From positions 1 through 64,000 of the forward strand of contig NZ_QRAI01000001.1 in the NCBI RefSeq assembly GCF_014336955.1: a DNA stretch of 64,000 bases, given 5' to 3'. A program made the translations under genes and the position numbers. Source of the DNA: Saccharophagus sp. K07. Lineage in GTDB: Bacteria; Pseudomonadota; Gammaproteobacteria; Pseudomonadales; Cellvibrionaceae. This document shows positions 28,061 to 56,864 of this stretch, in pieces. Numbering within the stretch: position 1 is the first letter of the stretch; every line of letters starts with the position of its first letter. The notes beneath the pieces are model-generated. The model did no database searches and was not told the origin of the DNA. It saw nothing but the letters and a program-made list of their open reading frames with translations.

Positions 28061-28179
28061 ACGCTCCTTTCAGATTAACCAACACCCGGATAGCTGAAAT
28101 ACTGAACGCGTTCCGGCGCGATGCTGGGAAGGTGTCCTGGATCCTTTCCGGGTGATAAGAACGATAAGGAAAACACATT

Positions 28180-30378: not shown

Positions 30379-30419
30379 AATTTCCAGTCAACTTATTCCG
30401 TCTTGTGTATGCGAGACAA

Positions 30420-30440
30420 CGCGCCCGCGTCGCGGGCGCG
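30420..30440 (+). repeat. Very GC-rich hairpin between glgB and glgX
   Basis: CGCGCCCGCG-T-CGCGGGCGCG, perfect 10-base arms around one base, 42 bases after the glgB stop. No T-run follows. It may stabilise or separate the glgB and glgX messages. Confidence 0.5.
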
Positions 30441-30467
30441 CTAAATGCGAGGTGATTTAGCGACACT

Positions 30468-32633: not shown

Positions 32634-32796
32634 AGGAATCGCCCTGACCTGAAGCCTCAAGTCGGGCAAAGACAAGAACCGTCTTGCAAAATAATTCGGC
32701 AAATAAAAAGAAAAACAGTAGATAAAAAGAAAAACAAAAGTCGCGCTGATGTTTGTGCGTGGCATATCCGCGAATCTTTGTGCATCTAGAGGAACT

Positions 32797-35253: not shown

Positions 35254-35294
35254 ATCACCCATAACGTTAATTTTTGAAATTGAGTAGGTCTGCA

Positions 35295-36575
35295 ATGGAT
35301 AAACCCCTGGAACACCCAAATCCGCGATTTGTCAGCCGCCTCACCAGAGACACGCTTGCGTTGATTCTGGCCGGCGGGCGCGGTAGCCGTCTTTACGAAC
35401 TCACCGACTGGCGCGCCAAACCCGCGCTCTATTTCGGTGGAAAATTCCGCATTATCGATTTCCCGCTTTCCAACTGCATTAATTCGGGCATTCGCCGCGT
35501 CGGTGTTTTGACCCAATATAAAGCGCACTCCTTGATCCGCCATATCCAAGTGGGCTGGAGTCATTTCAAACGTGAACTGGGTGAATATGTTGAAGTATTG
35601 CCGGCGAGCCAGCGCAATTCTCCCAACTGGTATCAAGGCACTGCAGACGCGCTGTATCAGAACGTCGATATTATTCGAGCAGCCAATCCGAAATATGTGA
35701 TGGTGCTTTCCGGAGACCACGTTTATCAAATGGATTACGGCAATATTCTCGCCTATCACGTCGAGAGCAAAGCCAAGCTGACCGTTTCCTGTATCGAAGT
35801 TCCGGTGGAAGAAGCGGCGGGTGCATTTGGTGTAATGACGGTGGACGACAACAACCGGGTTCTGCGTTTCGACGAAAAACCGGCCAACCCGACGCCTGTT
35901 CCGGGTAATCCGAACTTGTGTCTTGCCTCCATGGGCAACTATATTTTCGACACCGAATTTCTGTTGGATCTCTTGGAAAAAGATGCAACGAAAGAAGGTT
36001 CGGATCACGATTTTGGTAAAGACATTATTCCGTCAATTATCGACAGCGGCGACGTATACGCTTTCCGTTTTCGCGATCAGCGCGGCAATCAGGCCTACTG
36101 GCGCGATGTGGGAACGCTGGATGCGTTTTGGGAAGCCAATATGGAATTGGTATCGCCCACACCTTCATTGAACCTGTACGACCACCAGTGGCCGATCTGG
36201 ACTTATCAAACTCAATTGCCACCGGCGAAATTCGTGTTCGATGACGATGGCCGACGCGGTTATGCGGTGGACTCCATGGTATCCGGCGGCTGCATTATTT
36301 CCGGCGGTACAGTGCGTAAATCGCTGCTGTTCTCCGACGTGCGCGTGCACTCCTACACCTTGATTGAAGAATCCGTGTTGTTGCCGGAAGTGCAGGTGCA
36401 CCGTTACGCCAAGGTGAAACGAGCCATTATCGATCGCGCCTGTGAAATTCCGCGCGGCATGGAAATTGGTGTCGATCACGAGCAGGACAAAGCCCGCGGC
36501 TTCCGCGTCACCAAGAAGGGCATTACCCTGGTGACTCGCGAAATGCTCGGTCAACGCGGCGGCGCCCGTTATTGA
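35295..36575 (+). CDS. glgC: Glucose-1-phosphate adenylyltransferase GlgC
   Basis: A 426-residue enzyme making ADP-glucose, the committed and allosteric step of glycogen synthesis. The nucleotide-binding loop [22 protein letters not shown], the substrate loop [11 protein letters not shown], and [15 protein letters not shown] (catalytic Asp) are present; the C-terminal left-handed beta helix holds the regulatory region. I chose ATG 35295 ([12 protein letters not shown]), with GAGTAGG upstream, over TTG 35274. A terminator follows, so glgA may have its own promoter. Confidence 0.96.
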
Positions 36576-36602
36576 TCAAATCGGCTTAAACTGTATAGCG
36601 AT

Positions 36603-36628
36603 GGGAACCTCTATAGGTTCCCTTTTTT
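36603..36628 (+). terminator. Rho-independent terminator after glgC
   Basis: GGGAACCT and AGGTTCCC stem with loop CTAT, running directly into TTTTTT. It lies 28 bases after the glgC stop and may split the glg cluster into two transcripts. Confidence 0.92.
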
Positions 36629-36701
36629 GTGCTCCGCCACAGCCAAACGGCTCATAAAAAAGGCGGCACAGCGAAACAGAAGCAAATAGTAAGGTGCGAT
36701 A

Positions 36702-38282
36702 GTGACAAAAAGAATTCTGATGGTGGCAGCGGAAAATGATGCGCTGCCCAACGCCAAAGTTGGCGGCATCGGCGATGTGGTGCGAGATTTACCCAAAGCT
36801 TTGGCTGAGCAGGGTTGTGTCGTTCATGTGGTCGTCCCTTCATATGGTTTTTTACATCGCGGCGCGGCGCAGCAAGTCGCATCCTTTCCGGTTTTGTTCG
36901 GCAATGCCATTGAACAGGTTACCTTGTTCCGTTGGAGCCAATTGCAAGAGGGGCAGGATGTTGATGCGCCGGGCGTGCATCAGTGGGTGCTCGACCATCC
37001 GGGTTTTTATCCCTGCGGTCCAGGACAGATTTATTGCAATGATCCCAATAACCGGCCATTTGCCTCGGACGCTGGTAAATTCGCGTTATTTTGTGCGGCT
37101 GTCGGCCAGGCGATTTTGAACGAGTCTTTTGGCCCTCTGGATATTCTCCATTTGCACGATTGGCACGCGGCTGTGCTGGCGGTGTTGCGGGAATACGATC
37201 CGCACTATGCGCGTCTGAAATCCTCCCGCGTGGTCTATTCCATCCACAATTTATCGCTGCAAGGCATTCGTCCCTTGGCGGGCGACCCGTCCTCACTGGA
37301 AAGCTGGTTTCCGCGGTTGGAGTACGATCAGGCAGTGATTTGCGATCCACGGGTGACTCACTGCTTTAACCCTATGCGCGCCGCCATCGCCTTGAGCGAC
37401 AAGGTTCACGCGGTATCGCCCACCTATGCGGAAGAAATTCAGCGTCCGAGCCAAGTGGCGCAGCATATTTACGGTGGAGAAGGGCTGGAAACTGATTTGG
37501 TCGCAGCGGCCAAGCAGCAGCGTCTCCTGGGCATTCTCAACGGTTGTGAATATCCCAAGGATGCCGAGTACCCGCGGTTTAACAAAGCCCGTTTGTCCGC
37601 GCTTATCGACGAAACTCTGTTGCATTGGGTGATCAAAAGCCCGGCCGTATTAAGCGTGCATTGGGTGGCGCGGGAGCGTTTGCAGCAGTGGACCAACAGG
37701 CGTGAGCGCGGTTTGCTGTTGACGTCCGTGGGACGGGTGACCGAACAGAAGGTGCGTTTGTTGCGTCACAAGGTGCAATATCAGGGACGCGAACTGCCGG
37801 TTTTGCGCCATTTGCTGAATCAGCTCGGTGATAAAGGCGTGTTTATTCTGCTCGGCAGTGGCGATGCGGATTACGAAAAATTCCTGCTGGAAACCAGCGC
37901 CTATTGCCCGAATTTTATTTTCCTGCGCGGCTATTCCAACGAGCTTGCCCAGGCACTCTATGCCTCCGGCGATCTGTTCCTGATGCCCAGCTCGTTTGAG
38001 CCCTGCGGAATCAGCCAGATGCTGGCCATGCGCGCCGGTCAACCCTGTCTGGTGCACGGGGTCGGCGGTCTCAACGATACGGTGATCGACGGGGTGAGCG
38101 GCTTTGTTTTTCGCGGTAATGACGGCGATGAGCAAGGTCAACAGTTGCTCGACCGTTTTGCGGAAATACTCGCGCTCCACGACGAGAATCCCAAAAAGCT
38201 GCAATCCATCGCCAAGGGTGCTGCCAAAGCGCGTTTTACCTGGGAGGCAGTAGCCAAGGAGTACTTGGAAAAACTCTATTAA
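36702..38282 (+). CDS. glgA: Glycogen synthase GlgA, GT5
   Basis: A 526-residue ADP-glucose-dependent synthase that elongates alpha-1,4 chains. The N-terminal ADP-glucose-binding motif KVGGIGDVV (near residue 20) and C-terminal GT-B elements (ERGLLLTSVGRVTEQKV, then SSFEPCGISQMLAMRAGQP) are present. It starts at GTG 36702 after AAGGTG. Length is a little longer than E. coli (477). It uses GlgC product and is immediately followed by a small HEAT-like gene. Confidence 0.95.
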   Translation: MTKRILMVAAENDALPNAKVGGIGDVVRDLPKALAEQGCVVHVVVPSYGFLHRGAAQQVASFPVLFGNAIEQVTLFRWSQLQEGQDVDAPGVHQWVLDHPGFYPCGPGQIYCNDPNNRPFASDAGKFALFCAAVGQAILNESFGPLDILHLHDWHAAVLAVLREYDPHYARLKSSRVVYSIHNLSLQGIRPLAGDPSSLESWFPRLEYDQAVICDPRVTHCFNPMRAAIALSDKVHAVSPTYAEEIQRPSQVAQHIYGGEGLETDLVAAAKQQRLLGILNGCEYPKDAEYPRFNKARLSALIDETLLHWVIKSPAVLSVHWVARERLQQWTNRRERGLLLTSVGRVTEQKVRLLRHKVQYQGRELPVLRHLLNQLGDKGVFILLGSGDADYEKFLLETSAYCPNFIFLRGYSNELAQALYASGDLFLMPSSFEPCGISQMLAMRAGQPCLVHGVGGLNDTVIDGVSGFVFRGNDGDEQGQQLLDRFAEILALHDENPKKLQSIAKGAAKARFTWEAVAKEYLEKLY

Positions 38283-39813: not shown

Positions 39814-40725
39814 TTAAATGCGACCTTTTTGCAGAACGCTCACCGCCAAGGTCGCAGCCGATGTTCGATTTTCAACACCGATTTTTTTAAACAGTTGTTC
39901 CAAATGTTTATTGACGGTGCGGGGGCTGAGTTCGAGGATCTGGGCAATTTCCCGATTGGTCTTGCCCCGCGCTACCCATAAAAGCACTTCGGCTTCACGC
40001 TGAGTAACGCCGAAATGATTTTTCAGCAAACCACTTTCTTCGGGCTGCTCATCGCTGATCAAGCGCAAAAGAAATTCGTTGTTGCTGGCAGTACCGACTA
40101 GCACCCATTTCAATGTTGTGCCGGCGGCATCCACTTGTAATTGTCCGCCCTCGGGTGGATTGTGTTTTAGCCATTGTGCAAAATGACTCTCCAGGTGCAG
40201 TGTTTCCCAACCACCTGGAGATATTTTGTCGAGGTAGTGATTAACCTGTGGTGTTGCCCAGCATAATTCGCCGCGTTTATTGACGGCGCATAAATTCTGC
40301 CCGGTGCTGTCCAACGCCGCCTGTGCGCTGCGTGTGGCGCGCGCATTATTTAAATGCACACGAATACGTGCAATTAATTCCAGCGGATTAATGGGCTTGG
40401 TTACATAATCCACCCCGCCTGCAGAAAATCCTTTAACAATATTGTCGGTATCAGCAAGGCCGGTCATAAAAATCACGGGAATATTTTTTAATTCCAAATC
40501 GCGTTTGAGGTTTTCGCAGGTTTCAAAACCGTCCATATTCGGCATGACAGCGTCGAGCAAAATAACGTCGGGGGTCATTTTGCGGGCGATATTCAAAGCC
40601 TGGCGGCCTTCCAGCGCGACCAGAGTGGTCATGCCCGCCTGTTCCAAGGCGTCATTAAGCATGCCCAGGGTTTCCGGAGAATCATCCACGACCAGAACCA
40701 GATCATGGGAATTTGAAGTGTTCAT
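39814..40725 (-). CDS. LuxR/NarL-type DNA-binding response regulator
   Basis: A 303-residue regulator. The receiver (about residues 5-125) has VVDDSPETL, the phospho-acceptor Asp in ILLDAVMPNMDG (about residue 58) and KPINPLEL. A linker (about 140-225) of unknown fold follows. The C-terminal helix-turn-helix is GVTQREAEVLLWVARGKTNREIAQILELSPRTVNKHLEQ. ATG 40725 is assigned with GAG nine bases upstream; an in-frame ATG at 40734 is possible. It follows the permease-fused kinase by about 30 bases, so the two form a two-component pair. Confidence 0.85.
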   Translation of the reverse strand: MNTSNSHDLVLVVDDSPETLGMLNDALEQAGMTTLVALEGRQALNIARKMTPDVILLDAVMPNMDGFETCENLKRDLELKNIPVIFMTGLADTDNIVKGFSAGGVDYVTKPINPLELIARIRVHLNNARATRSAQAALDSTGQNLCAVNKRGELCWATPQVNHYLDKISPGGWETLHLESHFAQWLKHNPPEGGQLQVDAAGTTLKWVLVGTASNNEFLLRLISDEQPEESGLLKNHFGVTQREAEVLLWVARGKTNREIAQILELSPRTVNKHLEQLFKKIGVENRTSAATLAVSVLQKGRI

Positions 40726-40756
40726 AAGGTACATCTCAGTAAACCACGATCCAACA

Positions 40757-43700
40757 TTACAGTGATTGAGAAAAAGTCGGTGTTCCTTGTACGGAACGAA
40801 CCGTGTCGATCAAATCATCGAGATTGACTTGGTCCAAACAATTGCGAAAACGCTGAATCATCTGCGCGCTCGCGCCGTTTTCTTCTTCCAGTCGGTTGAC
40901 CAGATCGCGTATTTTCCCTAAGGCGCCGACCTCGGCCCAGCCGATCATTTCTTCCAGAATTTCATCCGAGGGAAGTTTTTCGCCACCATAGGAGGAAAAA
41001 GAAAACATATCCGTCATGCGCTGCTGATGATCCCAGGTCAAATTCAAATGCTGGCCCAATTTTTCCAACAGACTGTCCAAGCGAATGGGTTTAATCAAAT
41101 AATCGTCATACGCCGGTTTTGATTCTGCTGGCGGTGCGTCTTCGTTGGCGTTGGCCGAAACCATAATAATTGGCTGGCGATAATTCAGACTGCGCAGTTT
41201 TCGCGCCAATTCCGGCCCGTTTATGCCGGGCATACGCCGGTCGATCAAAAAGGCATCCGGCGAAAATATTTTCAAAACGCTTAAGCACGATTCTGCATCC
41301 GGTGCTTCCACCACGGTAAATCCGAGTGGGGCCAAGAGATCGTGCATCAAACCGCGATGGGCCGGGTCGTCATCCACAATCAACAGCGAACGCTTCTGTC
41401 CCATATAGCCGTAGATTTTTTCCTTCACCACTTCCGACGGCATCTGATAAACATGGGCGAGCATCAGCCACACAGAAAAGGTAACGCCGCCGTTGGGATT
41501 GGCGGTGACCACTAGATCGCCGCCCATAATATCGACCAGCAATTTGGTAATGGTGAGGCCGAGACCGGTGCCGCTGACCACCGGCGCGCCGGGCAGGCGA
41601 ATGCGCTCGAAGGGTTTAAAAATCCGCTCCAGTTCATTTTCTGGAATGCCGACGCCGGTATCGCGCACACGAATTTCCGCTACCTGATTGCGATAACGAA
41701 TGCTCAATTCCACTTCGCCCTTGGGGGTGAATTTCACCGCGTTGGACAAAAGATTGATCAGAATCTGGCGCACGCGTTTTTCATCGCCCTGAACCAAGTC
41801 CGGCAGCGGGGTGGTGCGCAGATAGCGGAAATTCAGACCTTTACCTTCCGCCTGCAGGCGAAACATGTCGACGATCTGGTTCATCATCGCATTGAGATTA
41901 AAAATGTCCTTTTGAATTTCCAGACGACCGGCTTCGATTTTGGAAATATCCAACAAGCCCTCGATCAAATCCGTCAGGTGTTCCGCGCTGCGCTGAATCA
42001 CCTTGATTTGATGCTTTTTGTGTTTGGGAATCTGATCGTCGTGATCGAGCAATTGTGCATAACCGAGAATCGCATTGAGCGGCGTGCGTAGTTCGTGGCT
42101 AAGACCCGTGAGGTAACGGCTTTTGGCATTGTTGGCCGCTTCAGCGGTTTCTTTGGCTTGTTGCAAGGCGAGGTCGGTTTTTTTGTGCGCCTCGATTTCC
42201 TCTGCCAGCAGGCGATTCTGTCGCTGCGATTCTTCTTCCGCGACCAAGCGGCTTTCATGGGCGAGTACAAACAGCCAGGAAATAACCCCTGCGACAATCA
42301 TCAGAATAAAAAACACTTTCCACAGAGTGCGCGACAGAAATTCATTCGCGCCCGGAATATCCGTAATCGAATTGGTGTAAATCAACGAGAGCAGAATGCC
42401 GGTGACGCCGGTGACCAGAATCAGCAGCGTTAAAAAATTCACCAGACGGATATTGATATAGTCGCCCAATTTCTCCGGGAACACTCGCTGCAAACTGCGG
42501 GTAAAAATTTCGCTGAAACTATCGTGCGTTTTGCAAGCGTCGCGACAGCGTGAATCCAGCGAACAACACAGCGAACAGATCGACCCGTTATACGCCGGGC
42601 AAAATGCCATATCCTGGCGTTCGTAGGTATTTTCACAAATGGAACAGCGAATGGTTGCATCGCTGCTGATAATGGATGCCGGGCGCGCTATATAAAAACG
42701 CCCGCGCGTAATCAATGCAATCGTCGGCGCAAGAATGCAGGCGCAAGCCAAAGCAATAAAGTGTGCAAGGGCTTGGGCGTAAGCGCCGAACATGCCGAGG
42801 TAAGCGAGAATTCCCACCAGCGACGCCGCCAACATGGCTCCCACGCCGACTGGATTAATATCGTAGAGATGCGCGCGTTTGAATTCGATGTAATTCGGGC
42901 TGAGTCCAAGAGGTTTGTTGATAACCAGATCCGCAACCAATGTTCCCACCCAAGCAACGGCCACTATGGCGTAAACGCTCAGAGTTTTCTCAAACGCGTG
43001 ATAGACCCCTAACTCCATCAACAATAAGGCAATGCACACATTGAAGATCAACCAGACAACACGGCCGGGATGACTGTGGGTAAGGCGGGAGAAAAAATTC
43101 GACCAAGCAATAGAGCCCGCGTAAGCATTAGTCACATTAATTTTTAGTTGCGACAAAATGACAAACACCCCGGCCAATAAAAGTGCAGCGTTAGGAGATT
43201 GGGTGAGATAGGAAAACGCAATGGTGTACATGGCAGTGGGATCCGCCGCATCCATCATGGACATGCCATGGGACAAGGCGAGAAATGCCAGAAAGGAGCC
43301 CGCGAGCAATTTCAGCATGCCGATCACAATCCAGCCCGGTCCTCCGGCCAGCATGGCAAGCCACCAGCGATAGCGATTGTCTGAATTTTTTTCCGGCAGA
43401 AAACGCAGAAAGTCGACTTGCTCGCCAATCTGTGCCACCAGTGCAAACATCACCGACGCTGCTGCACCAAACAGCAAAAGGCTAAATCCTGTCTCACTGT
43501 TTTGGTGCGCGGGTGGAAGGGCAGCCCAATCTTCGAGCATGGAAAAATCGGAAATAAAAATCACCAGCAGCGGCAGGATTTGCAGCGTCAACCACAGCGG
43601 CTGGCTCCACAATTGAAAGCGGCTGATAAAGGTAATGCCGTGAAATACCATGGGAATCACAATCACCGAAGAGATGACATAGCCCCAAGCCAGTGGCAAA

Positions 43701-44137
43701 CCGGTGAGCAATTCCAACGCTTTGGCCATAATGGCCGCTTCCAGCGCGAAAAAAATAAACGTAAAAGAGGCGTAAATCAGCGAGGTTGCAGTAGAGCCTA
43801 TATAACCAAAGCCTGCCCCACGGGTGAGCAGATCAATATCCACGCCGTAACGACTGGCGTAATAACAGATGGGCACGCTGGCAAGAAAAATCAGCGCACT
43901 GACCACCACTATAGCGCTGACGGCATTCAGAGTGCCGTAGTTCAGCGTAATAGCCCCGCCAATGGCTTCCAACGCCAAAAAAGAAATCGCTCCCAACGCC
44001 GTATTGGCGACTTTGGTCAAGGACCATTTGCGCGAACCGTTGGCGGTAAAGCGCAAGGCGTAGTCTTCCAGGGTTTGGTTGTTCACCCACTGGTTATAAC
44101 TTCTGCGGATACGAAAAATATGCTGAATGGCCGCCAT
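40757..44137 (-). CDS. Hybrid sensor histidine kinase with NCS1-permease sensor domain
   Basis: A 1126-residue membrane protein. Residues about 25-475 resemble NCS1 (cytosine/purine/allantoin) permeases: around twelve helices beginning after NQWVNNQTLEDYALRFT, with GGAITLNYG and SQLKINVTNAYAGS. Then come a Cys-rich region (about 498-535), two more helices (about 565-625), a coiled coil, a HisKA domain (His681 in LSHELRTPLNAI), HATPase_c (about 790-895), and a receiver (phospho-acceptor near Asp966 in FLIDRRMPG). The helical tail (about 1040-1126) has no clear Hpt histidine. Whether the permease part transports or only senses is unknown. ATG 44137 was chosen; GTG 44170 is an alternative. It is divergent from urtA. 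Confidence 0.85.
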   Translation of the reverse strand: MAAIQHIFRIRRSYNQWVNNQTLEDYALRFTANGSRKWSLTKVANTALGAISFLALEAIGGAITLNYGTLNAVSAIVVVSALIFLASVPICYYASRYGVDIDLLTRGAGFGYIGSTATSLIYASFTFIFFALEAAIMAKALELLTGLPLAWGYVISSVIVIPMVFHGITFISRFQLWSQPLWLTLQILPLLVIFISDFSMLEDWAALPPAHQNSETGFSLLLFGAAASVMFALVAQIGEQVDFLRFLPEKNSDNRYRWWLAMLAGGPGWIVIGMLKLLAGSFLAFLALSHGMSMMDAADPTAMYTIAFSYLTQSPNAALLLAGVFVILSQLKINVTNAYAGSIAWSNFFSRLTHSHPGRVVWLIFNVCIALLLMELGVYHAFEKTLSVYAIVAVAWVGTLVADLVINKPLGLSPNYIEFKRAHLYDINPVGVGAMLAASLVGILAYLGMFGAYAQALAHFIALACACILAPTIALITRGRFYIARPASIISSDATIRCSICENTYERQDMAFCPAYNGSICSLCCSLDSRCRDACKTHDSFSEIFTRSLQRVFPEKLGDYINIRLVNFLTLLILVTGVTGILLSLIYTNSITDIPGANEFLSRTLWKVFFILMIVAGVISWLFVLAHESRLVAEEESQRQNRLLAEEIEAHKKTDLALQQAKETAEAANNAKSRYLTGLSHELRTPLNAILGYAQLLDHDDQIPKHKKHQIKVIQRSAEHLTDLIEGLLDISKIEAGRLEIQKDIFNLNAMMNQIVDMFRLQAEGKGLNFRYLRTTPLPDLVQGDEKRVRQILINLLSNAVKFTPKGEVELSIRYRNQVAEIRVRDTGVGIPENELERIFKPFERIRLPGAPVVSGTGLGLTITKLLVDIMGGDLVVTANPNGGVTFSVWLMLAHVYQMPSEVVKEKIYGYMGQKRSLLIVDDDPAHRGLMHDLLAPLGFTVVEAPDAESCLSVLKIFSPDAFLIDRRMPGINGPELARKLRSLNYRQPIIMVSANANEDAPPAESKPAYDDYLIKPIRLDSLLEKLGQHLNLTWDHQQRMTDMFSFSSYGGEKLPSDEILEEMIGWAEVGALGKIRDLVNRLEEENGASAQMIQRFRNCLDQVNLDDLIDTVRSVQGTPTFSQSL

Positions 44138-44325
44138 AAAATTTCTCAAAAAATGACACATTGCTGACACGAAAGTGTGTCGCTAAGCGGCTAAGTCGAA
44201 TCATGAGTAACATCCGATTGCACAGTCCGTGCCGCTCCGAAAACGCGAGCGTTTTTCTGTGATGAAATTCGCGTGAACAATCCTCCTGCATGCGTCCTAT
44301 AACATCAGCAAAAGTCGGCCGCCTA

Positions 44326-44341
44326 TACGTCATTTGACGTA
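44326..44341. promoter_or_regulatory. TACGTCA-TT-TGACGTA palindrome, candidate response-regulator operator
   Basis: A perfect 7-2-7 inverted repeat in the region between the sensor kinase and urtA, 92 bases before the urtA start. The geometry and the outer TAC/GTA bases resemble NarL/NarP-type sites, and the adjacent regulator is of that family. Direct sight: the palindrome. Inference: that it controls urtA and perhaps the kinase. Confidence 0.55.
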
Positions 44342-44432
44342 GGTGGGGTGAGCATTCCTCGCATAGGCTCCGATTCGGTTATTGCCCAACAATGGCTCCG
44401 ACGAATGTTGTCCATTGCGAGAGGGTAAACCT

Positions 44433-45692
44433 ATGACGATGCAGTTGAAGTTGAAGAATCTCCATATGACCGGGATCCGCGGAATATCGCGGCGCTGGTT
44501 GGGTAAAGCAGCGTTGGCGATTTGCAGCGGATGGATTTTTTCCGCAGCTGCCGCGGACGTGAATACCACCGGTCTAGCGGTGACGGATAAAGAGGTCACT
44601 GTGGGGATCCTCCACTCGGTGACTGGCACCATGGCCATTAGTGAAACCGGTTCGGTGCAAGCAGAAAAATTGGCCATCAAACAAATCAATGCTATGGGCG
44701 GTGTGCTCGGACGGCAAATCAAATTTATTCAGGAAGACGGCGCGAGCGACTGGCCGACTTTCGCGGAAAAATCCAAAAAATTATTGGTGAACGATAAGGT
44801 CGCTGCAGTGTTTGGTTGCTGGACATCAGCATCGCGCAAAGCGGTATTGCCAATTTTTGAGCAGTACAACGGTATGCTGTATTACCCGACCTTCTACGAA
44901 GGTTTGGAGCAATCTCCCAACGTCATTTACACCGGTCAGGAAGCAACTCAGCAAATTCTTGCTGGTATTGACTGGGTAGTAAAAGAAAAAGGTGCAAAAA
45001 CATTTTACCTGCTCGGTTCGGACTACATCTGGCCTCGCACCTCCAACAAAATCGCCCGCAAACATATTGAAAAACTCGGTTTGAAAGTGGTTGGTGAAGA
45101 GTATTACCCACTCGGTCACACCCAGTTCAACAGTGTGATCAACAAAATCAAACTCACCAAGCCTGATGTGATTTACGCGATTGTGGTCGGTGGTTCCAAC
45201 GTTGCCTTCTACAAACAGTTGAAAGCGGCTGGTATCAGTTTGCCGAAAGAAAAACCGCTGTTGCTCACCATTTCCGTAACTGAAGACGAAATTCTCGGTA
45301 TCGGTGGCGAAAATATCGAAGGCGCTTATGCCGCCATGAAATATTTCCAAAGCCTCGACAACCCCAACAACAAAGCTTTCGTTGAAGCCTTTAAAGCAGA
45401 GTACGGCGATAACATCGTAATCGGTGACGTAACTCAGGCGGCTTATCTCGGCCCCTGGTTGTGGAAAGCGGCGGTGGAAAAAGCTGGCTCCTTTGATATC
45501 GATAAAGTGCGCGCAGCATCGCCCGGCATTGAGTTGACCACGGCTCCTGAAGGCTACGTCAAAGTTCACGAAAACCATCACCTCTGGTCCAAAACCCGCA
45601 TAGGTCTGGCTCTGAAAAACGGTCAGTACAAAGTGGTACACGAAACCGAAGAGTTGATGGAGCCAGATCCATTCCCGAAAGGTTATCAATAA
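44433..45692 (+). CDS. urtA: Urea/short-chain amide ABC transporter, substrate-binding protein
   Basis: A 419-residue periplasmic binding protein of the UrtA/FmdD/AmiC type. A signal region is visible (charged start, then WLGKAALAICSGWIFSAAAA, cleavage about residue 45). The core begins VTVGILHSVTGTMAISETGSVQAEKLA and carries FGCWTSASRKAVLPIFE and YYPTFYEGLEQSPNVIYTGQ, typical of urea- and amide-binding members. ATG 44433 follows GAGAGGG. An inverted repeat lies between it and urtB. The amide or urea preference cannot be read from sequence; the formamidase downstream favours amides. Confidence 0.9.
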   Translation: MTMQLKLKNLHMTGIRGISRRWLGKAALAICSGWIFSAAAADVNTTGLAVTDKEVTVGILHSVTGTMAISETGSVQAEKLAIKQINAMGGVLGRQIKFIQEDGASDWPTFAEKSKKLLVNDKVAAVFGCWTSASRKAVLPIFEQYNGMLYYPTFYEGLEQSPNVIYTGQEATQQILAGIDWVVKEKGAKTFYLLGSDYIWPRTSNKIARKHIEKLGLKVVGEEYYPLGHTQFNSVINKIKLTKPDVIYAIVVGGSNVAFYKQLKAAGISLPKEKPLLLTISVTEDEILGIGGENIEGAYAAMKYFQSLDNPNNKAFVEAFKAEYGDNIVIGDVTQAAYLGPWLWKAAVEKAGSFDIDKVRAASPGIELTTAPEGYVKVHENHHLWSKTRIGLALKNGQYKVVHETEELMEPDPFPKGYQ

Positions 45693-45718
45693 AACCATCT
45701 GTCTTGACGCAAGTGATC

Positions 45719-45741
45719 GGAAGGGCGCACGCCGCCCTTCC
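45719..45741 (+). terminator. Intercistronic stem-loop between urtA and urtB
   Basis: GGAAGGGC / GCCCTTCC form a perfect 8-bp stem with a 7-base loop, 26 bases after the urtA stop. No T-run follows. Such hairpins often protect binding-protein mRNA and lower downstream expression. Confidence 0.6.
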
Positions 45742-45779
45742 TGTAAACCAGCAGTACCGGATAAAGACGTGGGGTTCCA

Positions 45780-46706
45780 ATGTTTGCCGACTACACCAGT
45801 GCTGAGCTTCTATCCATATTTGCCATGCAAGGTTTTGCAGGGCTAATTCTGTTTTCCGTATTTGTTTTAATGGCGTTGGGCCTTGCCATTATTTTCGGCC
45901 AGATGGGTGTAATTAATATGGCCCACGGCGAATTTATGATTCTCGGCGCTTACGTCACCTATTTAATTTCCAATTTATTTTCGACCTATCTACCGTCTCT
46001 TTTCGGAATTTATTTCTTTGTTGCCATGATCATTTCCTTTTTTGCCGCTGGTGCTCTAGGGGCTTTGGTGGAGTGGTCGTTTATTCGCTTTTTGTATCAA
46101 CGCCCGCTGGACACCCTTTTGGCAACCTGGGGGTTAAGCCTGATTTTGCAACAAATTTATCGCAGCGTATTCGGTGCGCGCGAAGTGGGTGTGACTCTGC
46201 CGGATTGGTTGATGGGTTCCGTACCTCTGACAGAAACCATCGAAGTCCCAATTAATGGTTTATTTGTCATGGGCTTGACCATTGCGATCGCCATTGCCGT
46301 TTATTTATTGATGTACAAATCCCGCTGGGGCTGCCAGGTGCGCGCCGTCGTGCAGAACCGACCTATGGCTGCAGCTGTGGGAATCAATACGGCAAAAATC
46401 GACCGCATTACCTTTGCGCTCGGATGTGGAATTGCAGGTGTCGCTGGCAGTGCATTTACCATGATTGGTTCAACAGGCCCAACTGCTGGACAACTTTATA
46501 TTGTCGATACCTTCTTGGTTGTTGTATTCGGTGGTGCAGCCAGTTTGCTTGGCACTATCGCTTCAGCCTTCACCATTTCTCAAGCTCAATCCACCATGGA
46601 ATTCTTTTTGAGCGGTTCTATGGCAAAAGTATTAACGCTCCTGACGGTCGTCATCATCTTGATGATTCGCCCGCAAGGACTCTTCGCCATGAAAGTGCGC
46701 AAATGA
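45780..46706 (+). CDS. urtB: Urea/amide ABC transporter permease UrtB
   Basis: A 308-residue inner-membrane permease of the LivH/UrtB family with about eight hydrophobic segments. The QMGVINMAHGEFMILGAYVTYLI segment is the family signature, and RAVVQNRPMAAAVGINTAKIDRI is the cytoplasmic loop expected to contact the ATPases. It pairs with UrtC. The stop overlaps closely with the next gene (urtC begins ten bases later). Confidence 0.93.
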   Translation: MFADYTSAELLSIFAMQGFAGLILFSVFVLMALGLAIIFGQMGVINMAHGEFMILGAYVTYLISNLFSTYLPSLFGIYFFVAMIISFFAAGALGALVEWSFIRFLYQRPLDTLLATWGLSLILQQIYRSVFGAREVGVTLPDWLMGSVPLTETIEVPINGLFVMGLTIAIAIAVYLLMYKSRWGCQVRAVVQNRPMAAAVGINTAKIDRITFALGCGIAGVAGSAFTMIGSTGPTAGQLYIVDTFLVVVFGGAASLLGTIASAFTISQAQSTMEFFLSGSMAKVLTLLTVVIILMIRPQGLFAMKVRK

Positions 46707-46716
46707 GGTGATGACC

Positions 46717-47961
46717 ATGTCGATGCCTAATCAATCATCAATGGAAAATTCTGCGCTGGTTGAAAATCCACTGTCGCAGCACGGATTAAAAGCCTTATTT
46801 CCCAAGCATGACATTATTTATCTCGCCATACTGGCTGTATTTCTCGGGATTTTACTGCCTATGACGCTGGATATTTTCCGCCTGAATCTGGTGGGGAAAT
46901 ATCTCACTTACGCTTTCGTCGCTGTAGGTTTGGTGTTGTGCTGGGGATACGGTGGGATTTTGAGTTTGGGCCAGGGGGTGTTTTTTGGGCTGGGCGGATA
47001 TTGCATGGCAATGTTTCTCAAACTGGAAGCTTCCGATCCGGAAAGCACCAAAATTCAATCCACACCGGGAATTCCGGATTTTATGGATTGGAACCAGATT
47101 ACCGAATTGCCCTGGTTTTGGGAGCCCTTCTACAGCTTGCCTTTTGCCTTGATTGCCATTCTTGTGGTGCCGACCATTTTCGCTTACATCATCGCCGTTG
47201 CCATGTTTAAACGGCGTGTGGGCGGAGTGTATTTCGCCATTATCACTCAGGCGATTGCCTCCATTCTGACGATTTTGATTATTGGCCAACAGGGATATAC
47301 CGGCGGCGTCAACGGCATTACCGATTTGCGCACCTTATTAGGCTGGGATATCCGCACCGATTCCGCCAAATACATTCTGTATTACGTGAATTTCATCCTG
47401 CTGATGCTGTGTTTGCTGGCCGCGCAATTCGTGCGTAAAAGCAAGCTGGGTCGTCTACTGGTGGCCATGCGCGGTAGAGAAGACCGGGTGCGATTTTCCG
47501 GTTACGACGTATCGAGCTTCAAAATCTTTGTGTTCTGCCTGGGTGCAGCATTTTCCGCGATCGGCGGCGCCATGTTTACCCTGCAAGTTGGTTTTATGTC
47601 GCCTTCCTTTGTCGGCATAGTGCCTTCAATCGAAATGGTAATTTTCTGCGCAGTCGGCGGCAGATTATCAATCTTCGGGGCGGTGTACGGCACTCTGCTG
47701 GTCAACTGGGCGAAAACCACTTTTTCCGAATCCTTCCCTGAACTCTGGTTGTTTGCCATGGGCGCGCTGTTTATCGGAGTTGTAATGGCATTCCCGAATG
47801 GTCTTGCCGGTATCTACAAATCCCATATCGAACCGCTGTTTTCGCGCAAACCGAAAATGTTTGAGAAAAAGCCCAGTACACCAAAACCTGCGTCTGCACC
47901 AGAACCTGTATCAGCAGAGCCGCCATCAATTCCGGGTTCTATCAGCGCCATGGGGAAATAG
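46717..47961 (+). CDS. urtC: Urea/amide ABC transporter permease UrtC
   Basis: A 414-residue permease of the LivM/UrtC family, about ten membrane segments, with the GYGGILSLGQGVFFGLGGYCMAMF signature and AMRGREDRVRFSGYDVSSFKIFVF loop. A Pro/Ala-rich C-terminal tail (about residues 375-414) is not part of the transporter fold. I chose ATG 46717 eight bases after GAGG, over GTG 46708 or ATG 46711. It forms the heterodimer with UrtB. Confidence 0.92.
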   Translation: MSMPNQSSMENSALVENPLSQHGLKALFPKHDIIYLAILAVFLGILLPMTLDIFRLNLVGKYLTYAFVAVGLVLCWGYGGILSLGQGVFFGLGGYCMAMFLKLEASDPESTKIQSTPGIPDFMDWNQITELPWFWEPFYSLPFALIAILVVPTIFAYIIAVAMFKRRVGGVYFAIITQAIASILTILIIGQQGYTGGVNGITDLRTLLGWDIRTDSAKYILYYVNFILLMLCLLAAQFVRKSKLGRLLVAMRGREDRVRFSGYDVSSFKIFVFCLGAAFSAIGGAMFTLQVGFMSPSFVGIVPSIEMVIFCAVGGRLSIFGAVYGTLLVNWAKTTFSESFPELWLFAMGALFIGVVMAFPNGLAGIYKSHIEPLFSRKPKMFEKKPSTPKPASAPEPVSAEPPSIPGSISAMGK

Positions 47962-47970
47962 GAGACATTT

Positions 47971-48726
47971 ATGAGCGAGAAAAAAGCAGCTAAAGATTTT
48001 GTCCTCGCAGTTGAAGGATTGACTGTCTCCTTCGATGGATTCAAAGCGGTAAACGATTTGTCGTTCTACGTGGACGAAGGGGAGATCCGCGTAATTATCG
48101 GCCCTAACGGCGCAGGTAAAACCACGGTGCTGGATTTGATCTGCGGAAAAACGAAATCCACCGCCGGGTCGATTAAATTCCGTGGTATGGAACTGACCAA
48201 AATGACTGAGCACGCCATAGTCCACAATGGCGTCGGCCGAAAATTTCAAAACCCGTCGATCTACGAAGATCTCACTGTTTTTGAAAATCTGGAGTTGTCA
48301 TTTCCGCGCGGCAGAAGCGTTCTAGGCGCGCTGTTTTTCCGCCGCGATGCCGAAGTGGTCGAAGCGGTGGAAGAAGTCGCGGAAACCATTTTTCTCAAAG
48401 ACCAATTGCACACCACCGCCGGTTTATTGAGTCACGGACAAAAACAATGGCTGGAAATTGGCATGTTGCTGATTCAAAAACCCGATCTGCTGATGCTCGA
48501 CGAGCCGGTTGCGGGCATGTCCGTTGCCGAACGCAAACGCACGGCGGAATTGCTCAACCGTATTACCAAAGGTCGCTCGGTGATTGTGATTGAGCACGAT
48601 ATGCAATTTGTTGAAGACATTGCGCATCGCGTTACCGTGATGCACCAGGGAAAAACTCTGTCGGAAGGCTCCATGGAGCGTGTGAAAAACGATCCTAAAG
48701 TCGTTGAAGTTTATCTCGGGCATTAA
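47971..48726 (+). CDS. urtD: Urea/amide ABC transporter ATP-binding protein UrtD
   Basis: A 251-residue ATPase of the LivG/UrtD type. Walker A GPNGAGKTT (about residues 46-54), signature LSHGQKQWLEIGMLL (the usual LSGGQ replaced by LSHGQ, as in UrtD), Walker B LLMLDEPVAGMS and an H-loop (VIEHDMQF) are present. It energises UrtBC together with UrtE. It starts at ATG 47971, ten bases after urtC, and urtE follows after 13 bases. Confidence 0.95.
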   Translation: MSEKKAAKDFVLAVEGLTVSFDGFKAVNDLSFYVDEGEIRVIIGPNGAGKTTVLDLICGKTKSTAGSIKFRGMELTKMTEHAIVHNGVGRKFQNPSIYEDLTVFENLELSFPRGRSVLGALFFRRDAEVVEAVEEVAETIFLKDQLHTTAGLLSHGQKQWLEIGMLLIQKPDLLMLDEPVAGMSVAERKRTAELLNRITKGRSVIVIEHDMQFVEDIAHRVTVMHQGKTLSEGSMERVKNDPKVVEVYLGH

Positions 48727-48739
48727 GAGGAACACCGCT

Positions 48740-49429
48740 ATGTTAGCCATTCAAGATTATTCGGTCGCCTACGGTCAGAGCGAAGTCATCCACAACATGA
48801 ACGTGACGGTGGAGCCCAACCAAATTGTTGCCATTCTCGGTCGCAACGGCATGGGTAAAACCACTTTGATGAAATCCCTGATCGGCATGATTCCCACCGC
48901 CGGGGGTTCACTCAAACTGGACGGCAAAGAATTGTCGCAACAAAAAAGTTATGAGCGGGTAAAAAGTGGTATGGCATTTGTGCCGCAAGGGCGCATGATT
49001 TTTTCCACCATGACCGTGAAGGAAAATATCGAAACTGGTTTAACCACCACTTCGCAAAAAAACATACCGGAAAATATCTACGAGCTTTTCCCGGTTTTAA
49101 AAGAAATGAAAAGTCGCCGCGGCGGCAATTTATCCGGCGGTCAGCAGCAACAATTGGCCATTGCGCGAGCGCTTGCCAGCAATCCCAAAGTTTTGTTGCT
49201 CGACGAGCCCACCGAAGGTATTCAGCCCTCGATTATTCGTGAAATGGCGCGCACGCTGCGGCGCATTCGCGACGAACGCGGGCTTTCCATAGTGGTATCT
49301 GAGCAGGTTTTAAGTTTTGCGCTGGATGTGGCCGATCGCATTCTTGTAATTGAGAAAGGCCACATAGTTCAGGATCAGAAGCGCGAGGATGTGGACCACG
49401 ACAAGGTCGCGTCCTATCTCTCTGTTTAA
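48740..49429 (+). CDS. urtE: Urea/amide ABC transporter ATP-binding protein UrtE
   Basis: A 229-residue ATPase of the LivF/UrtE type. Walker A GRNGMGKTT, signature LSGGQQQQLAIARAL, Walker B VLLLDEPTEGIQ (the EGIQPS wording is characteristic of UrtE) and SEQVLSFA at the H-loop region are visible. In that last element the usual histidine is Gln, as commonly seen in LivF/UrtE proteins. ATG 48740 follows AAGAGGAA; an upstream in-frame start at 48704 would run into urtD. Confidence 0.94.
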   Translation: MLAIQDYSVAYGQSEVIHNMNVTVEPNQIVAILGRNGMGKTTLMKSLIGMIPTAGGSLKLDGKELSQQKSYERVKSGMAFVPQGRMIFSTMTVKENIETGLTTTSQKNIPENIYELFPVLKEMKSRRGGNLSGGQQQQLAIARALASNPKVLLLDEPTEGIQPSIIREMARTLRRIRDERGLSIVVSEQVLSFALDVADRILVIEKGHIVQDQKREDVDHDKVASYLSV

Positions 49430-49477
49430 TGCATTTTTCACGACGTTATTTTTAACAACCGCAAGAGGAAAATCCCA

Positions 49478-50707
49478 ATGGCTGAAACGATTATCAAAAT
49501 CGACCTCAAGCAATCTCCTTATGAAAATGAAAAAGTCCACAACCGCTGGCATCCGGATATCCCCATGGCGGTTATGGTAAAACCGGGAGATGATTTTATT
49601 ATCGAGTGCTACGACTGGACCGGCGGGCAAATCAAAAACGACGACGACGCATCCGACGTACGCGATGTGGACCTCACCCAAGTACACTTTTTATCTGGCC
49701 CGGTCGGCATCGAAGGCGCAGAGCCCGGCGACCTGTTGGAAGTGGATATTCTGGATATAGGCACTTTCGCAGAAAGTCTCTGGGGTTTTAACGGCTTTTT
49801 CTCCAAGAAAAACGGCGGCGGCTTTTTGACCGAACATTTCCCGGAAGCGCAAAAATCCATCTGGGATTTCAACGGCATGTTCACCAAATCCCGCCACGTA
49901 CCACAAGTGGAATTTGCCGGCTTGATTCACCCCGGATTGATCGGTTGCTTGCCGTCAAAAGAATTGCTGGAAGAGTGGAACAAGCGCGAAAAAGCCTTGT
50001 ATGACACAGATCCCGACGCTGTACCTGCACTTGCCACTCTGCCTTATGCAGAAACTGCGCATATGGGGCAATTAAAAGGCGAAGATAAAGCCAAAGCTGC
50101 CGCAGAAGGTGCGCGTACCGTGCCGCCGCGCGAGCATGGCGGTAACTGCGACATTAAAGACTTATCCCGCGGTTCCAAAGTGTATTTCCCGGTTTATGTA
50201 AAAAATGCCGGTTTGTCCATGGGTGACTTGCACTTCAGCCAGGGCGATGGAGAAATTACTTTCTGCGGTGCCATCGAAATGGCCGGTTGGATTCACCTGC
50301 GCGTCAATTTGATCAAAGACGGGATGAAAAAATACGGTATTAAAAACCCGATTTTCAAACCGAGCCCAATCACACCGAAATACGACGACTATTTGATTTT
50401 CGAAGGTATTTCCGTAGACGAAAAAGGCAAACAGCATTATCTGGATGTGCATATTGCTTATCGTCAGGCCTGTTTGAACGCCATCGAATATATGACCAAG
50501 TTCGGTTATAGCAGGGCGCAAGCCTACGCCATTTTGGGCGTGGCGCCGGTACAAGGGCATATCAGTGGTGTGGTGGATATTCCGAACGCGTGTGCAACCT
50601 TGTGGCTGCCGACGGATATCTTTGAATTTGATATCAAGCCGAATGCATCGGGTCCGACCAAAGCGGTTGATGGCTCCGTCGACGTTCCATTAGCCCCCGA
50701 TCTTTAA
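49478..50707 (+). CDS. fmdA: Formamidase FmdA
   Basis: A 409-residue enzyme of the acetamidase/formamidase family, which hydrolyses formamide to formate and ammonia. The N-terminus MAETIIKIDLKQSPYENEKVHNRWHPDIP, the GLIHPGLIGCLPSKELL segment and REHGGNCDIKDL, GDLHFSQGDGEI and GVVDIPNACATLWLP are typical. Length matches Methylophilus FmdA (407). The gene is 48 bases after urtE in the same direction, the arrangement seen in fmd clusters where the transporter brings in short-chain amides. Substrate preference is by family. Confidence 0.93.
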   Translation: MAETIIKIDLKQSPYENEKVHNRWHPDIPMAVMVKPGDDFIIECYDWTGGQIKNDDDASDVRDVDLTQVHFLSGPVGIEGAEPGDLLEVDILDIGTFAESLWGFNGFFSKKNGGGFLTEHFPEAQKSIWDFNGMFTKSRHVPQVEFAGLIHPGLIGCLPSKELLEEWNKREKALYDTDPDAVPALATLPYAETAHMGQLKGEDKAKAAAEGARTVPPREHGGNCDIKDLSRGSKVYFPVYVKNAGLSMGDLHFSQGDGEITFCGAIEMAGWIHLRVNLIKDGMKKYGIKNPIFKPSPITPKYDDYLIFEGISVDEKGKQHYLDVHIAYRQACLNAIEYMTKFGYSRAQAYAILGVAPVQGHISGVVDIPNACATLWLPTDIFEFDIKPNASGPTKAVDGSVDVPLAPDL

Positions 50708-50763
50708 TTTGTAGCGTTGTAATTTGATACCCACGGACGGGTAATTTGCTGGAGATTAATAAT

Positions 50764-51114
50764 ATGCCTGTGTACGACTACCGCTGCCGCGAACATGGTG
50801 TTTTTTATCAACTGCAAACCATGGAAAATCACGATAAACCGGTCGAATGTCCCACGTGTGCACAATTGTGCCCGCGCATCATTATGCTGCCGCCGGAATT
50901 ATTGTTGATGGATCCAGACAAACGCCTCGCGCACGCCACCAACGAAAAATCCCGCCACGAACCCATCATCTCTTCCCAAGACCGTCGCCAACACGACCAC
51001 AGGCACCGCCAGCAGTGCGGTTGCGACCACGGGCTGAAAAAATCCAAACTTTTCTACACCGCCCGCGGCGAAAAAATGTTTCCCTCCATGCGGCCTTGGA
51101 TGATCAGCCACTAA
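50764..51114 (+). CDS. fmdB: FmdB-family zinc ribbon protein
   Basis: A 116-residue protein of the FmdB family, a putative regulatory zinc ribbon found beside formamidase. The N-terminal MPVYDYRC begins the ribbon. The first ligand pair is C-x2-H (CREH) rather than C-x2-C, and the second is CPTC with an additional Cys three residues later. A His- and Cys-rich stretch (HDHRHRQQCGCDH, about residues 76-88) follows. I chose ATG 50764 with GGAG upstream. Its function is unknown; regulation of fmdA was proposed in Methylophilus. Confidence 0.8.
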   Translation: MPVYDYRCREHGVFYQLQTMENHDKPVECPTCAQLCPRIIMLPPELLLMDPDKRLAHATNEKSRHEPIISSQDRRQHDHRHRQQCGCDHGLKKSKLFYTARGEKMFPSMRPWMISH

Positions 51115-55031: not shown

Positions 55032-55745
55032 TTAGTCCCAATTTTTATAGCAGTCCCTCATAAAGCGAATCATTCCATCAGCGTTTCGAGTGTTATAAAA
55101 GTCGACCATTCCTGAGTTGAATTCTTCTTTCTTTTCCGCAGGGACTGTCAGGTAGTAGTAGCCATTGTTCATCAAGAGGTAATTCATGACCAGTCGACCA
55201 GTACGTTTATTTCCGTCATAAAAAAATTGGTTCAGGGATGCCCAGAGAAAATAAATAACGGCTTTCTCAACAGGATTCGTGATTTTTTTTATTTCATTAA
55301 TACCACTTTCATAAATGGTATCGAGAAGTTCTGGGGGCGGTGGTTGATAAGAGGTGCCGCTGATGCCGACAGCGCCTTTGCGGAATTCGCCCCATGCTAA
55401 AGCTTCTTCACGCGCGACAAATGAATGCAGGTGGGTTGCCAGTTTTTTGGATAAGCTCCACTCCGGATTTCCGACCAAGTTAGATAATTCGCGAAGAGCT
55501 TTTGCTTGATTCAAGGCTTGATTGAAATCCTCAGTTTTATAACCACCAACCGTAATGCCGTCCAAAACAGTTTGGACGTCTAAAAAAGACATGGGGTTGT
55601 CTTCTAATTGCGTGATATCCCAAACATATTGCGCAAGCAATTTTTTCAAAATGAATTTTGGTTTGCGAGGGTCGGTAGCCGGGATCAGCTGAAAACCACC
55701 ATCCGACCATTCAATACCTAAGCGCGTTTTATCTGGAGTTTGCAT
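55032..55745 (-). CDS. Fic/DOC family protein, degenerate catalytic motif
   Basis: A 237-residue Fic-family protein. The FIC motif region is FLWASLNQFFYDGNKRTGR (residues 166-184). The usual H-x-F-x-D/E-G-N-x-R pattern has Asp177, Gly178, Asn179, Arg181 and Arg184, but the histidine position is Gln173. VLDGIT (60-65) occupies the place where class II Fic proteins carry an inhibitory [ST]xxxE[GN] motif, here with Asp. It lies three bases after a paralogous, frameshifted fic gene, so the pair arose by duplication. AMP transfer activity is doubtful. Confidence 0.75.
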   Translation of the reverse strand: MQTPDKTRLGIEWSDGGFQLIPATDPRKPKFILKKLLAQYVWDITQLEDNPMSFLDVQTVLDGITVGGYKTEDFNQALNQAKALRELSNLVGNPEWSLSKKLATHLHSFVAREEALAWGEFRKGAVGISGTSYQPPPPELLDTIYESGINEIKKITNPVEKAVIYFLWASLNQFFYDGNKRTGRLVMNYLLMNNGYYYLTVPAEKKEEFNSGMVDFYNTRNADGMIRFMRDCYKNWD

Positions 55746-56787: not shown

Positions 56788-56864
56788 TGGTGGGCCCACC
56801 AGGACTTGAACCTGGGACCTGCCGATTATGAGTCGGATGCTCTAACCAACTGAGCTATAGGCCC
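56788..56864 (-). tRNA. ileX: tRNA-Ile2 (CAU anticodon)
   Basis: A 77-nt tRNA with encoded CCA. Acceptor arm GGGCCTA pairs with TGGGCCC; D-arm, T-arm (GGTTCAA) and anticodon loop ACTCATAATC are visible. The CAT anticodon and overall sequence match the lysidine-modified tRNA-Ile2 rather than initiator or elongator Met; the match to E. coli ileX type is from memory. It lies between rpoD and the accessory patch. Confidence 0.85.

Follow-up and report, generated by a model that had tools for sequence, protein, structure and literature searches.

What does a histidine kinase sense whose front half looks like a permease, and which genes does it control? The question is raised by a 64,000-nucleotide stretch of Saccharophagus sp. 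K07 (contig NZ_QRAI01000001.1, positions 1 to 64,000; hereafter the window), in which a hybrid sensor kinase and a response regulator are encoded divergently from a urea/amide ATP-binding cassette (ABC) transporter operon, urtABCDE, followed by the formamidase gene fmdA and by fmdB. As a whole, the unit is likely to be best explained by a permease for urea or short amides that has turned into a sensor and induces its own uptake-and-hydrolysis regulon; the kinase probably senses urea or formamide. In window coordinates the unit comprises:

39814..40734, minus strand: response regulator, 306 amino acids (aa), with REC at residues 13–125 and GerE at residues 244–297 (Pfam)
40757..44137, minus strand: hybrid sensor kinase, 1126 aa, ATG at 44137; the open reading frame extends to a GTG at 44170
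42530..44137, minus strand: sensor module, kinase residues 1–536, predicted NCS1 fold and eight-cysteine motif
44433..45692, plus strand: urtA, urea/amide ABC transporter binding protein, likely ATG 44433 (TIGR03407)
45780..46706, plus strand: urtB, short form of 308 aa (TIGR03409)
46708..47961, plus strand: urtC (TIGR03408)
47971..48726, plus strand: urtD (TIGR03411)
48740..49429, plus strand: urtE, ATG 48740 (TIGR03410)
49478..50707, plus strand: fmdA, formamidase (NF045496; 2WKN)
50764..51114, plus strand: fmdB, zinc-ribbon protein, ATG 50764, passing two family models (TIGR02605 and NF053663)

The nine genes that the initial annotation had placed face to face are all present at these coordinates, with NCBIfam or Pfam matches. 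All five Urt subunits and FmdA exceed the curated NCBIfam cut-offs (UrtA 549.4 bits against 492.75; FmdA 792.9 bits against 500). FmdA is homologous over its full length to 2WKN, a formamidase of known structure (E 6e-229), and solved urea-binding proteins are among the PDB matches of UrtA. The C-terminal half of the kinase is a HisKA-HATPase-REC core by Pfam, in which H681 and D966 are assigned by position. The adjacent gene, originally described as a LuxR-type regulator, does encode a GerE/LuxR helix-turn-helix (HTH) domain; the description is corrected to a two-component response regulator, which carries a REC domain with the phospho-acceptor D61, assigned by position. The parts of a two-component system are present in the two proteins; the middle stretch of the regulator (residues 130–240) has no Pfam match.

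By predicted fold and profile alignment, the front half of the kinase appears to belong with the NCS1 permeases. Direct sequence comparison is blind to this likeness: the sensor half has no PF02133 match in Pfam up to E 10, and a PDB sequence search with residues 1–536 gave no usable match, so that profile–profile alignment and fold comparison were required. An AlphaFold2 model built from 22 sequences (predicted local distance difference test 76.7, predicted template modelling score 0.79) matched CodB best in Foldseek (E 2e-10), with Mhp1 at E 1.3e-9. In the VIA comparison, CodB aligned with sensor residues of about 22–481 at a Z of 32.8 and a root-mean-square deviation (rmsd) of 3.5 (397 of 400 residues aligned), Mhp1 followed at Z 26.3–27.8 (best: rmsd 4.2, 431 aligned), and the next row had a Z of 23.7; the SSS structures listed rank below the NCS1 entries. 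With hhalign the sensor profile matched an NCS1 profile of 11 rows at E 1.5e-11 over 389 columns, compared with E 0.1–0.17 for SSS, APC and BCCT control profiles of only one or two rows each. With two NCS1 rows CodB still came first (E 9.8e-4 against 0.1–0.17), but the alignment spanned no more than 132 columns; AllW, another NCS1 protein, reached E 0.5 when used by itself. An input domain of the SLC5 (SSS) type is not supported, the PutP/ActP profile reaching E 0.1 as against 1.5e-11 for NCS1. The permease-like sensor half seen in the initial annotation is hence upheld by both methods.

A check of the substrate residues against NCS1 structures, likewise proposed initially, came out mixed, with a matching fold and the loss of one of the two aromatic residues that sandwich the nucleobase in CodB. 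The CodB residues were taken from the excerpted text of PMC9379551 and mapped by a first profile alignment, whose NCS1 set included two wrong reading frames (L134 and L135). In this mapping, W108 of transmembrane helix (TM) 3 aligns with sensor F129, a Phe in 106 of 108 sensors, F204 of TM6 aligns with L233, and Q121 of Mhp1 aligns with E133. According to the same excerpt, the Na2 site of CodB has two hydroxyl ligands on TM8, T278 and T279 (PMC9379551). These sodium-ligating threonines fall on the sensor stretch L331-K332-I333; the register is uncertain by one residue, and in neither register is a Ser or Thr kept. Invariant in all 108 sensors are E133, Q236, E239, Q240, D242, R245, Q330, K332, I333, N334, N337 and Y339, and equally the eight cysteines of the C-terminal motif. 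The sensor thus has fold and register in common with CodB and Mhp1, together with D-F-x-R-F in TM6 and a Tyr in TM8, but differs from them by the missing PF02133 match, the replacement of the Na2 hydroxyls by K332/I333, the lost TM6 aromatic and the added cysteine motif.

These residues bear on the initial proposal that a purine breakdown product such as allantoin might be the signal. Cytosine and hydantoin carriers are the closest NCS1 folds, and some stand-alone relatives of the sensor are annotated as allantoin or cytosine permeases in their records. However, all 108 sensors carry Leu or Met in place of the sandwiching TM6 aromatic (F204 in CodB), and the linked genes are urt, urease, formamidase and amidase genes, which makes such a ligand highly improbable.

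The distribution of the kinase follows that of the urea and amide genes. Three sets were analysed: 58 genomes (the genome of the window and relatives), a class sample of 185 evenly drawn genomes, and 104 scored loci. The latter combine 22 stretches of relatives, the best 80 of 572 named matches and 11 class stretches, after removal of five duplicate loci and four that were too short; the class stretch L144, whose sensor is cut by a contig end, fell below the search threshold for this scoring. Because the named loci are the best 80 of 572, neighbourhood shares lean towards the type of the window, and the class survey is the fairer measure. The sensor was found in 23 of the 58 genomes and FmdA over its cut-off in 13; the co-occurrence of kinase and urt/fmd genes, on which the initial annotation had let its proposal depend, is complete in this direction, since all 13 lie within the 23 (Fisher 3.6e-7, kinship uncorrected). 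Within the class sample, 12 genomes have the sensor, nine have FmdA over the cut-off and four have both (p 0.0011), as divergent neighbours in all four. Nine of the 12 class sensors adjoin urt, a urt porin or urease, and UrtA exceeds its cut-off in 11 of the 12 sensor-bearing genomes. In 93 of the 104 scored loci the neighbourhood includes urt, urease or a urt porin. UrtA of the window type lies divergently upstream in 76, with FmdA in the stretch of 62 of these; the remainder have canonical UrtA in the stretch (14), urease (2), a urt porin (1) or none of these (11). The regulator gene is immediately downstream of the kinase in 94 of 101 loci.

The gap between kinase and urtA contains two conserved elements:

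44326..44341, strandless: predicted operator TACGTCATTTGACGTA, a 7-2-7 palindrome
44360..44366, plus strand: conserved box CGCATAG, exactly 18 nucleotides past the palindrome

Seven aligned kinase–urtA gaps share 20 invariant columns, 12 of them in the palindrome, two beside it and three in the box 18 nucleotides on. CGNAT occurs at the box position in 26 of 45 comparable sites, and the box could be the −10 region of urtA; a sigma-54 pattern was sought upstream of urtA and not found. No second perfect copy of the palindrome, TACGTCA-NN-TGACGTA, exists in the 4.27-Mb genome, where two further places match with two mismatches, compared with 10 for a reversed control pattern. Within the window it is the only match with up to two mismatches (0.05 expected).

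Across loci, the palindrome was scanned for with up to two mismatches in the 700 bp upstream of the kinase. It occurs at 43 of 77 urt-fmd-type loci and at nine of ten with divergent canonical urt or urt porin, at none of seven with non-divergent canonical urt or porin or with urease only, at one of 13 without urea neighbour (L086, a truncated contig), and in none of the 104 stretches taken 3′ of the kinase as controls. Where kinase and urt lie apart, the site can go with urt (L043, L124, L094); it lies before urt about 59 kb from the kinase in one genome (G018) and on other contigs in two (G023, G095). At a limit of one mismatch, the set of 58 has sites in 16 of 23 genomes with the kinase and in three of 35 without it (p 1.8e-6); the corresponding shares in the class sample are six of 12 and 17 of 173 (p 0.0011). 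The kinase-bearing genomes of the former set contain 20 such sites, of which 17 stand before urt, porin-urt or fmdA and one before amiF; two have no such neighbour. Five kinase-free fmdA loci (L150–L154) have no site with up to two mismatches. Near-palindromes in G051, at G025:2391646 and in G029:C56, where none of the compared proteins was a urea/amide neighbour, and in G042 and G055, on contigs other than that of urtA, were set aside as chance matches.

Regulator and palindrome vary together. Residue 275 of the regulator (N275 in the window, within SPRTVNKH) is taken to lie in the HTH recognition helix, from its position and by comparison with NarL. Among 96 regulators it is Asn in 69, Asp in 22 and another residue in three, with two unread. 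In a search that left half-site positions 5–7 free in the seed and counted as sites those of at least 5/7 symmetry, a site was obtained at 45 of 69 Asn and 21 of 22 Asp loci. Half-sites of Asn loci have T at position 5 (87 of 90) and C at position 6 (77 of 90), and those of Asp loci C at position 5 (37 of 42) and G or A at position 6 (42 of 42). N275 regulators accordingly pair with TACGTCA half-sites and D275 regulators with TACGCRA-like ones. Most Asp loci belong to Bradyrhizobium and its kin; since the Asp locus of Aureimonas (L126) stands elsewhere on the sensor tree, the D275 type is likely to have arisen twice. Conserved linkage, the common palindrome and this covariation agree with the initial view that the kinase and the uptake and hydrolysis genes form one regulatory unit.

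Which ligand is sensed may be approached through changes of the partner genes. In a phylogeny of 93 sensors, from which 15 rows of Bradyrhizobium and those shorter than 540 aa were excluded, urt-fmd and canonical partners interleave, with seven and nine label changes, of which well-supported branches force five and seven; residues 190, 170 and 230 separate urt-fmd kinases from canonical-urt kinases. The repeated swaps between urt-fmd and urt/urease partners favour urea, or a pocket shared by urea and amides, among the remaining ligands. With the same regulon, the signal might instead be formamide or short amides only, the urease-linked versions having diverged to urea. This fits with fmdA carrying its own palindrome in four genomes (G006, G021, G033, G227) and with stand-alone permeases that accompany just fmdA or amiE. 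It also fits with G029, where the urt-side fmdA is a remnant and AmiF, a nitrilase-type formamidase (NF009803, 598 against 406 bits), is encoded elsewhere behind a perfect palindrome (L165 5316, G029:C15:35315), apparently a swap of the enzyme under the same control. However, the partner switched several times while E133, Q236, E239, Q240, K332 and N334 stayed constant in both groups, for which a single shared ligand class is the simpler account; a signal of formamide or short amides only is unlikely.

Relatives of the sensor without a kinase point in the same direction as the shared urea/amide reading. In a plasmid collection, sensor relatives occur in 524 records, 342 of them from Klebsiella and a few chromosome-sized. 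Among the Klebsiella records with a kinase, one was read; there amiF and an operon for a urea ABC transporter lie opposite the kinase unit, with a one-mismatch site in the gap. A homologue from Acinetobacter lwoffii is a stand-alone protein of 535 aa preceding a urease operon. Twelve stand-alone loci were examined, the stand-alone-looking rows H57, H58, H60–H63, H65 and H69 lying outside that set and the unannotated L182 being compared with reference proteins only. In nine of the 12, urease, formamidase or amidase genes adjoin: urease in A. lwoffii and A. ursingii, Klebsiella and G335; fmdA in Moraxella and Tsukamurella; amiE in Arthrobacter U41; and fmdA, amiE and a kinase in Methylovirgula and G319. 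G319 has the kinase opposite permease-fmdA-amiE with a one-mismatch site in between. The permease gene of Methylovirgula comes after that of the regulator; none of the urt genes is complete in this stretch, which yields just one partial match of UrtA type (99 bits). Two permeases, one recorded as cytosine permease (L180 6956–8563) and one unannotated (L187 9107–10678), each occupy the end of a urease operon, after ureG, and are candidates for misannotated urea permeases. A midpoint-rooted tree of 44 rows unites the kinases in one clade (100/98), next to two permeases with the eight-cysteine motif; most stand-alone permeases have fewer cysteines.

All 11 permeases compared share T126, F129, E133, Q236, E239, Q240, K332, I333, N334, N337 and Y339 with the sensors. 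The domain might accordingly still be an active transporter, the kinase sensing flux or transport state and not occupancy, as a true transceptor of the kind proposed for CbrA. The shared E133, Q236, K332 and N334 speak for it, as does K332 at the Na2 place: in the excerpted text of a cryo-EM preprint on CbrA, a lysine, K196, occupies the Na2 site, together with proton coupling (PMC13022988), and the parallel is drawn here. However, E57 of TM1 is present in 108 of 108 sensors and in none of the 11 permeases (nine have Phe, the two eight-cysteine ones Gln) and is a candidate for the loss of transport, and dedicated transporters are encoded alongside the kinase. Continued transport by the sensor domain is possible and yet rather doubtful.

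The module has also been reused. One genome (G194) holds a sensor fused to PAS-GGDEF-EAL, domains of cyclic-di-GMP turnover (L142, G194:C3), and another fused to PAS-PAS-kinase-REC (L143, G194:C11). In three cyanobacteria and Polyangium (L115, L117, L125, L112) the sensor is fused to kinases without REC, and no LuxR partner adjoins them on the downstream side; in L117 a urt operon lies opposite. Domains of these six fusions were assigned by Pfam for four and read from the sequence for L125 and L112. It might be argued that what the kinase reads out is the overall state of nitrogen supply or of the membrane, and that the permease fold is a ligand-free scaffold, since some kinases lie far from urt and the GGDEF-EAL fusion occurs in a genome without UrtA hit. 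Against this, the polar pocket residues are strictly conserved in the kinases and most of them in the permeases too, and a mere scaffold is distinctly unlikely.

Several observations weigh against a urea/amide sensor with a dedicated regulon. Eleven of the 104 scored loci have no urt or urease gene nearby, one of them (G018) being the locus with the palindrome at a distant urt; the two sensors of G194 occur in a genome without UrtA hit; FmdA occurs without the kinase in five of 185 class genomes; and kinship inflates the p-values. No site with up to two mismatches was found in the 700 bp at 34 of 77 urt-fmd-type loci. The regulator is of the D275 type at 22 of these, and a variant palindrome accompanies it at 21; at the remaining loci the mismatches number three or more, or the site lies in another part of the locus (L032, L078). 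By free search, a clearly symmetric site is missing at 24 of the 69 loci with N275. The palindrome is absent by the kinases beside urease only (L140, L127), by canonical urt in L042, and at the second urt locus of the window's own genome, a canonical one with urease on another contig (UreC, UreG and UrtA over cut-offs); L044 also has none, its contig beginning just ahead of the porin. A classical hybrid relay would require an Hpt domain, and Pfam detects none in the kinase. Three of the 12 stand-alone loci (two Streptomyces, one Arthrobacter) lack urease, formamidase or amidase neighbours, and the two Acinetobacter loci are near-copies.

In the favoured urea/short-amide sensor, the input domain would have evolved from a permease of NCS1 fold whose substrates were urea and/or short amides such as formamide, making the kinase a transceptor-type sensor. 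Substrate in the permease-like pocket would change the conformation of the domain. This change may be relayed by the eight-cysteine motif (C498–C535, probably binding zinc) behind the NCS1-type domain and by two hydrophobic stretches at about residues 567–625, known from the sequence only; motif and stretches appear to stand in place of the soluble STAC bundle of SLC5/STAC kinases. Residues 497–676 have no Pfam match over cut-off, STAC included; DUF6526 was judged a chance match (E 5e-4, under the cut-off). The HisKA-HATPase-REC core would then phosphorylate the REC-LuxR regulator, which is predicted to bind the palindrome upstream of urtA and presumably to activate, not repress, the uptake and hydrolysis genes. 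In other genomes the regulator may also act before fmdA, amiF, or porin and canonical urt.

A wider account, that an NCS1-fold permease family for urea and short amides gave rise through one kinase fusion to a sensor family that was later reused, is given an even chance. Permeases now called allantoin/cytosine or hypothetical would then serve urease and formamidase operons, the sensor family would possess its own operator in Proteobacteria, Cyanobacteria and Myxococcota, with later reuse by GGDEF-EAL and other outputs, and E57 of TM1 would mark the change from carrier to receptor. Matched permease/kinase pairs could in that case serve for a residue-by-residue study of this step.

Outside the unit, a cupin gene comes after fmdB. 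The window carries a glycogen/starch cluster before the unit at 25940–38282 (4-alpha-glucanotransferase, branching enzyme, isoamylase-like, phosphorylase, GlgC-like and starch synthase genes) and a Fic/DOC family protein at 55032–55745 on the minus strand, with a tRNA gene (56791–56864) some 1 kb away.

Comparison with known systems places the kinase beside the SLC5/STAC sensor kinases CbrA, CrbS and RpuS, in which a LeuT-fold transporter domain is likewise fused to a kinase controlling nutrient genes. However, the domain is here of the NCS1 and not the SLC5 type, and the predicted regulon is that of urea and amides. An Amt–histidine kinase fusion of Kuenenia (PMC5764959) reportedly also uses a transporter fold to sense a nitrogen compound, but there fold and ligand are Amt and ammonium, and the domain is unrelated. 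The regulator resembles NarL/FixJ proteins in its REC and GerE domains, and the palindrome has the 7-2-7 inverted repeat of NarL; the half-sites, TACGTCA or TACGCRA, and the middle stretch of the regulator set it apart. In enzyme and transporter content the unit equals the fmd clusters, which join formamidase to urt or to the amide-urea transporter genes fmdDEF.

Urt of the fmd-linked type has been suggested to carry formamide (excerpted text of PMC13209695), and in Ectopseudomonas guguanensis histidine kinase and LuxR genes are drawn beside a urt operon near fmdA with no function assigned (excerpted text of PMC13296017); in these excerpts no regulator mechanism is given for such clusters. The excerpted text on MetT, an NCS1 metformin carrier (PMC13390362), does not mention urea or histidine kinases. 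A search of the open-access literature on the kinase, in which the stand-alone permease was not included, found no recognisable functional study of it, no NCS1-kinase class and no paper containing the palindrome letters. In conclusion, kinases derived from transporters are already known, and what is new is the NCS1-based variant, its tracking of urea and amide genes, the palindrome covarying with the regulator, and the stand-alone relatives beside urease, formamidase and amidase genes. If the proposed function is correct, an NCS1-based class joins the transporter-derived receptors, and urea and formamide use in many environmental bacteria has a dedicated regulator with a defined operator.

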